From an uncultured Flavobacteriaceae bacterium (lineage in GTDB: Bacteria; Bacteroidota; Bacteroidia; Flavobacteriales; Flavobacteriaceae), in assembly GCA_947497245.1 (NCBI GenBank), contig CANMFO010000003.1:310001-374000 (forward strand): a stretch of DNA of 64,000 nucleotides. The letters are read 5' to 3'. The notes under the pieces are model-generated. The model saw only the letters and a program-made list of their open reading frames with translations. It made no database searches and had not been told where the DNA came from. Position 1 is the stretch's first letter, and every line of letters starts with the position of its first letter. The position numbers and the translations under genes are program-made. Shown piece by piece: positions 50,641 through 60,063 of the stretch.

Positions 50641-50917
50641 TATTTTGGATCTTCCACCACCCTTTCCCTAAATACGGTCCTGCCCTCCCTTCCTGTATTT
50701 TTGGCCTTCCAAAATTTCGTATCCGGCCCCACCAGTGACCTATGGCTTGAAAAACCGTGTATGTTTTATACGATTTCACAAAGGAGTACACACAATTACA
50801 CAGTCTTTCGAACCAAAAGGGAACACATATAATTGATAATCAACAAATTATATATTTTCCTCTTTTTGGTATCATATTTTCTATGTTTTAAGGGAATTAA
50901 TACTAAAATCGAGAATC
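50641..50917. other. Intergenic region between the two paralogous secreted proteins
   Basis: 277 bases without a gene. It holds one ATTACACA (50795-50802) and, at 50866-50884, TTGGTATCATATTTTCTAT, which resembles TTGGCACCATTTTCCTAT at 50151-50168 ahead of copy 1. TATATTTT at 50851-50858 with TTG at 50833 is a weak promoter. Nothing else recognised. Confidence 0.6.
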
Positions 50918-51220
50918 ATGAAGAAATTATTTTTTGTATTGGTGTTGTCCCTAGGAAGTTTGACGGCCTTCGCCCAAGATGCCGAAGCCGCGGCCGAAGT
51001 GACAACTGAAGCTGTTGCCGCCCAGGACGATTTTTCTGAAATCGCCACTAGCGAATTGCCCGAAGCCGTGACCGCCGCTGTCGCCAAGAACTACCCCACG
51101 GCCACTATCGACAAAGCATACACCAATGAAGCGAAGCAGTACAAATTGGAAGTATCCTTGGAAGACGGTACTTCTGGTACGCTATACGCTGACGAGAACG
51201 GAAACTGGATTGAAATGTAA
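50918..51220 (+). CDS. Small exported PepSY-like protein, copy 2
   Basis: 100 residues. Signal peptide MKKLFFVLVLSLGSLTAFAQ, a short acidic-alanine spacer, and a C-terminal domain that aligns residue by residue with copy 1 (KAYTNEAKQYKLEV...DENGNWIEM). The domain resembles PepSY-like/DUF2874 proteins. Its own upstream region and terminator suggest separate transcription. Divergence of DNA between the copies is too large for a recent duplication. Confidence 0.85.
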   Translation: MKKLFFVLVLSLGSLTAFAQDAEAAAEVTTEAVAAQDDFSEIATSELPEAVTAAVAKNYPTATIDKAYTNEAKQYKLEVSLEDGTSGTLYADENGNWIEM

Positions 51221-58901: not shown

Positions 58902-59339
58902 TCAATTCGAAACGCTCACCACGTTTCCACTCAAGGTGGCCCGGTACTCCAACATATCGTAGTACCGGTTTCCGTCATCCGGACGGTTGAATTGCTGACC
59001 CGTAAAGACGCTGTACTCATAATCTTCACAGGGGCAAGTGGCCGTTTGCCCGTTCAACAGCATGGTCGAGCAGTCATTCGGGGCATGGTTTGGACAGCTG
59101 GCCTCAAAGGCGCGGAACTGGTCGAAACCCGCGTTGATCACGAAGACCCCCCGGGTGCCTACTCCACTGGCATCGATATAGACAGAGCTTCCCGTATTGG
59201 TCAACGGGCTGTACAGCGGTAAGCTAAGGTTCAGGTCGAACCGAAAACCGACTTCCTGCAAAAAGGGGTTGCGGGTATCCCGATTGTTGTCGCACGACAG
59301 TAGAAATAGCATTAAAATCAAACCCCAAATACGTCCCAT
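58902..59339 (-). CDS. Rieske-like lipoprotein with altered cluster motif
   Basis: 145 residues. Lipobox ends LLSC (C16). The fold looks like a Rieske domain: FEASCPNHAPNDC and TCPCEDYEYSVFTGQ sit where the two [2Fe-2S] boxes lie. A true Rieske needs CxH and CxxH; here the first reads CPNH and the second CPCE with no histidine, so an ordinary cluster is unlikely. Cysteines may form disulfides or bind another metal. Divergent from greA, with a 247-base gap between the starts. Confidence 0.75.
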   Translation of the reverse strand: MGRIWGLILMLFLLSCDNNRDTRNPFLQEVGFRFDLNLSLPLYSPLTNTGSSVYIDASGVGTRGVFVINAGFDQFRAFEASCPNHAPNDCSTMLLNGQTATCPCEDYEYSVFTGQQFNRPDDGNRYYDMLEYRATLSGNVVSVSN

Positions 59340-59388
59340 ACCTGTCTATCAATTTATAAAACCCTGACAAAATTGAGCAAAAATTATG

Positions 59389-59396
59389 TATATTTG
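59389..59396 (+). promoter_or_regulatory. -7 box ahead of the greA leader
   Basis: TATATTTG followed by CG. The nearest TTG (59373-59375) is 13 bases away, shorter than usual. It predicts an RNA start about 185 bases before greA. Confidence 0.45.
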
Positions 59397-59400
59397 CGTT

Positions 59401-59586
59401 AAATCCTCTCTAAAAAACGATGCTGTGCATTGTGGAAGCAGGGGATTTTGTTATTAATGAAACCCGGCTGTGAAAATGGGTACTTGCATGCTTGTTTTCG
59501 CACCGGTGCCTAGATGGTTCCCAATCGCACAGGGAGCCATACTATCAGATTTTGCATCCCACATCTAGACTTAAAACGTAAGAATT
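59401..59586 (+). ncRNA. Structured leader (or free small RNA) upstream of greA
   Basis: Three hairpins in a row: AAATCCTC/GGGGATTT type stem (59401-59408 with 59441-59448, one wobble) enclosing TGCT/AGCA (59421-59424, 59437-59440); a 12-pair stem CCGG-c-TGTGAAAA with TTTTCGCACCGG (59464-59476 with 59495-59506, one bulge, one wobble); and ATGGTTCCC/GGGAGCCAT (59514-59522 with 59532-59540, one wobble). No known riboswitch motif was recognised. No protein gene is there except a possible 17-codon frame at 59420-59473. Confidence 0.6.
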
Positions 59587-60063
59587 ATGGGTAACGTATC
59601 ATACTATACCGCTGAAGGGTTAAAAAAATTGAGGGACGAGCTGAACCAGCTAAGGGATGTGGAGCGCCCAAAAGCCTCGCAGGCCATTGCCGAGGCCCGG
59701 GACAAGGGAGACCTTTCCGAAAATGCCGAATACGACGCCGCTAAGGAGGCGCAAGGTCTATTGGAACTGAAAATATCGAAAATGGAGGAGGTACTGGCCA
59801 ATGCCAGGCTTATAGACGAGTCCCAGTTGGATACCTCCAAAGTACTTGTACTCTCCACCGTTAAGCTCAAAAACCAGAATAATGGAATGGAGATGTCCTA
59901 TACCCTTGTTGCCGAAAGCGAGGCCGACCTCAAAGCAGGGAAGATCTCTGTCAGTTCGCCCATAGGAAAGGGCCTATTGGGAAAAGTGGTGGGCGAAATT
60001 GCGGAAATCGTGGTTCCCAACGGTACTTTGAAATTTGAGATTTTAGAAATCAACCGAGCCTAG
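59587..60063 (+). CDS. greA: Transcription elongation factor GreA
   Basis: 158 residues. Frees stalled RNA polymerase by stimulating transcript cleavage. N-terminal coiled coil with the acidic tip (ARDKGDLSENAEYDAAKEAQ, residues D and E at the tip) and C-terminal FKBP-like domain (SVSSPIGKGLLGKVVGE). The gene has an unusually long structured leader. Confidence 0.97.
   Translation: MGNVSYYTAEGLKKLRDELNQLRDVERPKASQAIAEARDKGDLSENAEYDAAKEAQGLLELKISKMEEVLANARLIDESQLDTSKVLVLSTVKLKNQNNGMEMSYTLVAESEADLKAGKISVSSPIGKGLLGKVVGEIAEIVVPNGTLKFEILEINRA

Follow-up and report, generated by a model that had tools for sequence, protein, structure and literature searches.

A probable promoter-proximal terminator in the leader of greA in Flavobacteriaceae and other Bacteroidota

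Little is understood of how cells set the level of the RNA-polymerase rescue factor GreA, and this holds for E. coli too: the authors who studied the question there describe the loop, in the passages of their paper drawn on here, as hard to classify. GreA acts on paused and backtracked RNA polymerase, and about two-thirds of E. coli greA transcripts stop in the leader (PMC6829880). Without greA, cells contain about 4-fold less of the leader RNA GraL and a leader fusion is about 3.5-fold higher, whilst the catalytic mutant GreA D41A gives no repression; as far as the same passages describe it, active GreA seems to raise termination in its own leader, either directly or via another factor, and as the effect is seen in vivo and not in vitro a further factor is suspected (PMC6829880). 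Leaders of greA and rnk were also described by Naville and Gautheret 2010, in a paper whose main text has no words starting with Bacteroid, Flavobacter or Cytophag (PMC2965389). For the Bacteroidota, no paper on a greA leader was found in open-access main texts, among the matches listed; greA is absent from the main text of the Bacteroides thetaiotaomicron map (PMC7366714) and is not named in the main-text passages of a study of Flavobacterium psychrophilum, Table S7 of which could list it (PMC9723704). The passages of that study drawn on here report 64 structured 5' regions (PMC9723704), including new ones that are conserved across the family, and as far as we can tell this is also the family of the DNA described below.

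The window analysed is a stretch of 64,000 nucleotides from an uncultured Flavobacteriaceae bacterium, and the features of its greA locus are collected in Table 1. The encoded GreA is 43% identical to that of E. coli over 149 columns and retains at the finger tip the D and E aligned with E. coli D41 and E44 (GDLSEN / GDLKEN); the named genomes with the closest GreA, among the best 80 of 586 matches, are Flavobacteriaceae such as Maribacter and Flagellimonas, at 89-92% identity. The gene upstream runs divergently, so hairpin 1 cannot be the 3' terminator of that neighbour. By eye this gene has a lipoprotein-like start and a Cys-rich stretch, a search of NCBIfam gave no match for it, and relatives have a similar coding strand upstream of greA, again by eye. 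Between the two genes lie a -7 box and then three hairpins. A sequence-only reading had described the region 59389-59586 as one structured RNA of about 185 bases in which such a box is followed by three hairpins, one of them of 12 pairs, with no clear protein. The parts of that description are borne out: the box is present, all three hairpins fold better than shuffles, the hairpin of 12 pairs is the third (the second is the longer), and the longest ORF wholly inside the stretch, among those of at least 25 aa, is 36 aa. Folding of the stretch as a whole is also better than that of shuffled sequences (z -2.9, 3 of 200 as good).

Table 1. Features of the greA locus, in window coordinates
Feature	Position	Strand	Details
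Divergent gene upstream of greA	58902-59339	-	145 aa; from ORF list
-7 box of greA promoter, TATATTTG (consensus TAnnTTTG)	59389-59396	+	read directly
Predicted transcription start (+1), A59401, first base of hairpin 1	59401	+	counted by the -12 to -5 rule
Hairpin 1, terminator-like stem-loop	59401-59448	+	dG -16.7 kcal/mol
U-rich tail UUUUGUUAUUA	59446-59456	+	read directly; first U's pair with the AAA of the 5' end
Predicted short terminated leader RNA, about 48-56 nt	59401-59456	+	from predicted +1 and tail
Hairpin 2, 18 pairs, no U-tract	59464-59506	+	z -4.5, 1 of 200 shuffles as good
Hairpin 3, 12 pairs, no U-tract directly after	59511-59544	+	z -5.1, 0 of 200 shuffles as good
greA	59587-60063	+	158 aa; NCBIfam NF001263 and TIGR01462 above cut-off

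We consider hairpin 1 to be a promoter-proximal intrinsic terminator, that is an attenuator, of greA, acting with a GreA feedback that is itself argued from E. coli, and we put the probability of this reading at roughly 0.7. Between the promoter and greA there is a stable stem-loop followed by a U-rich tract. Its outer stem, AAAUCCUC/GGGGAUUU, is near-invariant and its inner stem variable, hairpin and tail together fold better than shuffles (z -3.3, 2 of 200 as good), and for the predicted leader RNA the minimum free energy and centroid structures are identical. The U-tract is interrupted in the window's own lineage (UUUUGUUAUU) and is weaker than in many relatives, and a simple terminator scan with a loop limit of 8 did not list hairpin 1. 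Neither the U-rich tail nor the start of the hairpin at the predicted +1 had been mentioned in the sequence-only reading.

The start itself is placed by analogy. Seven of the eight positions of the -7 box are invariant among the window and 28 relatives, and as TAnnTTTG sits at -12 to -5 in Flavobacterium psychrophilum, as reported in the passages drawn on here (PMC9723704), the greA transcript would begin at A59401. By eye the bases before the box (59368-59388, CAAAATTGARCAAAAA) are conserved in the clade to which the window belongs, with a TTG 13 nt upstream of the -7 box, closer to it than the usual place of a -33 element.

On the reading preferred here, RNA polymerase would start at about A59401 and the first ~48 nt of RNA would fold at once into the hairpin, to be followed by the U-rich stretch. 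A share of the polymerases would stop at the U-tract and release a leader RNA of ~50 nt, and those remaining would read through into greA. Release at the U-tract, and how frequent it would be, we infer; a hairpin that looks like a stop signal, kept in the same place in most of the relatives, suggests that GreA may be metered through the very early end of a share of its transcripts. A correct start prediction would leave no upstream RNA from which an antiterminator or a ligand pocket could be built, and stopping or reading through would then most simply be decided by the polymerase together with its bound factors. The E. coli case points to GreA as the likeliest factor in control, which would give negative feedback, and we put the odds that GreA controls termination in its own leader here at roughly even. 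An earlier suggestion that the leader is cis-acting and tied to the state of the polymerase remains the best-supported reading, with the change that the conserved element is of ~55 nt and looks like a start-site terminator rather than a folded sensor.

Leaders of greA were collected from relatives of the window, from 80 named genomes and from the family, the class (with 60 more genomes) and the phylum. The loci were the best-scoring matches (80 of 586 for the named genomes, 30 of 199 genomes for the family, 30 of 149 for the class and 30 of 61 for the phylum), and apart from the 60 extra class genomes the sample leans to closer GreA proteins. Altogether 253 loci were considered and 239 distinct leaders kept, 12 of them with start positions set by hand; among the 14 dropped, 12 repeated another leader over the last 100 bases and two (L185 and L190) had no start placed. 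The terminator script searched the 200 nt before greA for hairpins 12-55 nt long with 5 or more T among the 8 nt of the tail, and it recovers the known E. coli GraL terminator as a positive control.

A terminator-like hairpin was found at dG<=-7 in 217/239 leaders, where dinucleotide shuffling gives 40.9 and the reverse strand 52, and the excess is there at looser and stricter thresholds (230/239 against 72.2 and 98 at dG<=-5; 154/239 against 9.5 and 16 at dG<=-11). Conservation before greA thus extends to most of the sampled leaders, at dG<=-7 to 23/25 of the relatives, 74/80 of the named genomes, 22/24 in the family with 5/5 more from wider draws, 1/1 in the same order, 80/91 in the class outside the order and 12/13 in the phylum outside the class. 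Several of the 22 leaders that miss the dG<=-7 cut still show a hairpin by eye, and one has its hairpin more than 200 nt from greA. Outside the class, five leaders (L175, L178 and L181-L183) have a near-alike hairpin, GCCGCAGCC ... GGCCGTGGCG, with a U-tract, by eye another form in which the element is conserved. Within the class, leaders that include L146, L203, L204, L210 and L233 share by eye a stem core, GAGUCCCG/CGGGAUUC, with the same G-U pair, and this core has UCCCG/CGGGA in common with Flavobacterium; to judge from these sequences, the likeness hints at common descent over repeated invention. A short ORF before greA (ATG AAG TTA TGA), seen in several Flavobacterium leaders, was considered and set aside, it is by eye not kept in relatives.

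The position of the hairpin was also measured. A TAnnTTTG box at least 40 nt before greA is present in 196/239 leaders, and in 162 of these a terminator-like hairpin starts -2 to 14 nt from the box nearest greA, where shuffling of the sequence after the box gives 3.9. When distance was left unlimited, taking the strongest terminator in each leader and the nearest box upstream of it (183 leaders), the median from box to hairpin was 6 nt, with quartiles of 4 and 9.5 and a 95th percentile of 55, and the distance was -2 to 10 nt in 138 of the 183; in terms of predicted starts, the quartiles place the beginning of the hairpin at +1 to about +6. Restricting the box to -2 to 40 nt gave quartiles of 4 and 7 (180 leaders). 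The gap between the end of the hairpin and the ATG has quartiles of 25 and 49, with 121 at the 95th percentile, and the element belongs to the start site and not to the gene start. The leader RNAs predicted for the other leaders are 30-57 nt long (5th-95th percentile). Box and hairpin occur together in 48/91 class leaders outside the order and 1/13 outside the class, so for these leaders placement at the start site is tentative. One genome, G001, has a leader (L007) of ~400 nt from the -7 box to greA, with hairpin 1 kept at the start site and more than 300 nt of other sequence after it.

What follows the stem bears on two further readings. It would seem unlikely that hairpin 1 is simply a stem-loop at the 5' end that shields the greA message against decay, or holds the leader accessible to ribosomes, with no termination. 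Stems known to stabilise a 5' end lie at the start of the transcript, as this hairpin is predicted to do, and the interrupted U-tract of the window's lineage also suits such a role. However, a stabilising stem needs no U-tract, and when hairpins closed on a G-C pair were sought after the -7 box with no tail required (132/196 leaders at dG<=-5; shuffles 324/1176), the 10 nt after the stem held on average 6.55 T, compared with 3.47 expected from composition and 3.48 after the hairpins found in shuffles. Furthermore, in 28 of the 61 leaders whose hairpin 1 ends 45 nt or more before the ATG there is a second hairpin with a U-tract (dG<=-5), against 4.4 in shuffles, which a stabilising stem again would not call for. 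Tandem terminators of this kind, between hairpin 1 and greA, are seen in L003, L004, L011, L012, L019, L048, L053, L087, L090, L095 and others.

There is likewise only a small chance, about one in ten in our estimation, that the hairpin stabilises a promoter-proximal pause with no release, where GreA would cleave backtracked RNA and the element would serve as a timing device. GreA does act on paused and backtracked polymerase, autoregulation in E. coli needs the catalytic residue, as the passages drawn on here report (PMC6829880), and the hairpin is located where polymerase has just left the promoter. Set against this, intrinsic termination is recognised by just such a U-tract next to the stem, and in the E. 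coli leader the fate of most transcripts, about two-thirds according to the same passages, is to end (PMC6829880). Intrinsic termination remains for us the better account of the stem and its tail.

Upstream neighbours were called by a simple ORF rule (at least 90 aa) at the 176 loci with enough flank, where the upstream gene is divergent in 123 and codirectional in 53. The terminator is present at 114/123 divergent and 48/53 codirectional loci. As 114 of the 123 divergent loci keep it, the hairpin does not there end the transcript of a neighbour, and a role as the terminator of the upstream gene is ruled out for them; at the 53 codirectional loci the hairpin could also end the upstream gene and so have a double role.

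Covariation was examined in two alignments, A1 with the window and 28 close relatives and A2 with 66 wider relatives; of the 120 distinct hairpins in the nearer set, 95 are included. The other 25 were left out by choice, for length, doubtful hairpin assignment, distance or near-identity, and four rows of A2 were trimmed at the 3' end. The inner stem of A1 was set by hand from the window's own fold, the structure of A2 was set after the RNAalifold result, and the shuffle control ignores relatedness. RNAalifold on A1 alone returned the outer stem only, with no compensatory pair. With the hand-set structure the outer stem hardly varies and all six inner-stem pairs show compensatory changes, the covariation score being 0.193 against 0.132 in shuffles, with 0/500 as high. 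The numbers of paired cells and of cells with double changes exceed every shuffle, the other two measures are mixed, the number of pairs with double changes being reached by 52/500 shuffles and that of pair types by 172/500. Sliding A1 by 3 columns gives a tie on pairs with double changes (7) and a slightly higher count of pair types (21 vs 20), at the cost of paired cells (50.5 vs 85.3% unslid) and score (0.101 vs 0.193); one third of the inner-stem cells of A1 are unpaired. In A2 90.9% of cells pair, 7/9 pairs have double changes, and on any of the five measures the alignment is reached by 0/500 shuffles and by no slid version. The check for covarying pairs that the sequence-only reading had proposed is therefore passed by hairpin 1, in both the 29 sequences of A1 and the 66 of A2.

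G-U pairs are common, at one pair in 12/29 sequences of A1 and at one in 22/66 of A2, and as far as the alignments go this speaks for an RNA structure. It is accordingly very improbable that the inverted repeat is a DNA operator at +1 to which a greA repressor binds. A repeat placed there would fit an operator, as would the finding of at most one model match in a genome (see below), but the inner stem changes with pairing mostly kept and with G-U common, which a DNA site would not favour, and hairpin and T-tract stand mostly on the greA strand (217 vs 52 of 239).

Elsewhere in the sampled genome the arrangement is rare. As a background, 464 kb of the window's own genome was taken (400 kb in stretches, and the window), in which 383 ORFs were tested, 234 of them with at least 60 nt of upstream space and 61 of those with a -7 box. 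In these 464 kb greA alone has a hairpin of dG<=-7 with a tail right after the -7 box; some terminator-like hairpin (dG<=-7, within 300 nt) is found in 62/234 ordinary upstream regions. The sole other background gene with a terminator-like hairpin right after a -7 box is in the window at 50917-51220 on the + strand, with a dG of -6.6. A covariance model built from A1 and run against 40 genomes gave 15 matches, at most one per genome. Of these, 12 have E <1e-6 and are all at greA by coordinates, 11 being members of the model and one, from G001, not; among the three weak matches two are at greA and one is elsewhere.

The picture for hairpins 2 and 3 is different. A DNA search of 60 genomes, including the window's own, gave a match in 25, and outside the own genome promoter with hairpin 1 and the start of greA match as separate pieces; there was one weak match elsewhere (E 4.9e-4, query 191-239). 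Nothing corresponding to 59448-59583 was found in the other 9 genomes of the genus, where the best match is 20 nt long (E 0.07) and on a contig other than that of greA, nor is this region repeated in the own genome, in which its best match elsewhere covers 37 nt (E 0.05). An origin of the two hairpins from a repeat is therefore not supported, there being no copies in the own genome or in the 9 others. Two genomes of the genus have just 83 nt from the beginning of the -7 box to greA, and hairpins 2 and 3 are missing there. Despite their strong folding these hairpins (59464-59544) are seen in only this one of 10 genomes of the genus, and we take them to be lineage-specific and perhaps young. All three hairpins are real yet they are not one unit, and hairpin 1 alone is conserved, so that the conserved element is the about 55 nt of hairpin 1 and its tail and not the stretch of 185 nt.

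Nor did the region match a family among those searched in Rfam. At the gathering score no Rfam family was found in the window, a permissive scan of 301 bases gave only a match to icaR on the other strand with an E of 3, which is at the level of chance, and 20 loci with greA leaders from the class gave no Rfam match. Least probable of all the readings, then, is the one offered from the sequence, in which all 185 nt of the leader would act as a structured sensor or as a separate small RNA of 6S-like or Flavo-1-like kind. All three hairpins fold better than shuffles, but two of them lack any counterpart among the other 9 genomes of the genus, two of those genomes have no space for them before greA, and Rfam has no match. 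It is possible, by analogy with GraL, that a small RNA exists in the sense of the terminated leader itself.

We would suggest tentatively, and at rather less than even odds, that across the phylum greA is under a minimal terminator at the first transcribed base, an attenuator with no sensor made of RNA, in which the one possible sensor would be polymerase with its bound factors and the rescue factor of that enzyme would set termination. Considered alongside the leaders of E. coli and Firmicutes, start-site terminator feedback would then be a recurrent and perhaps ancient means of setting GreA levels. The version with promoter, hairpin and U-tract, kept in most of the sampled leaders of the phylum, reduces the problem to its core, and if GreA still feeds back here its action is expected on polymerase at the terminator. 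The element also provides a recurring natural example for studies of intrinsic termination, in a phylum with its own type of promoter.

Finally, the leader can be compared with those already described. Its best reading is as a counterpart of the E. coli greA leader GraL, which it resembles in having an intrinsic terminator in the leader of greA (PMC6829880) and, at 30-57 nt predicted here against 37-59 nt for GraL as given in the passages drawn on (PMC6829880), in the comparable size of the RNA. The gene upstream of greA is also divergent in E. coli (dacB). The likeness is one of architecture, no sequence similarity between GraL and hairpin 1 is claimed. There are two differences from GraL; the first is that GraL has 19 nt before its hairpin which matter for autoregulation (PMC6829880), whereas here the hairpin begins at about the predicted +1, and because the upstream part of the leader that is important in GraL is missing we file the element as a greA-leader counterpart and not as GraL. 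The second is that control by GreA was shown for GraL, according to the same passages (PMC6829880), whereas for the Bacteroidota leader we infer it. The greA- and rnk-leaders of Naville and Gautheret 2010 include, in the main text, an antiterminator in each model (PMC2965389), for which there is seemingly no room upstream of the hairpin here. The Bacteroidota element would thus be a new variant of the known greA-leader attenuators.
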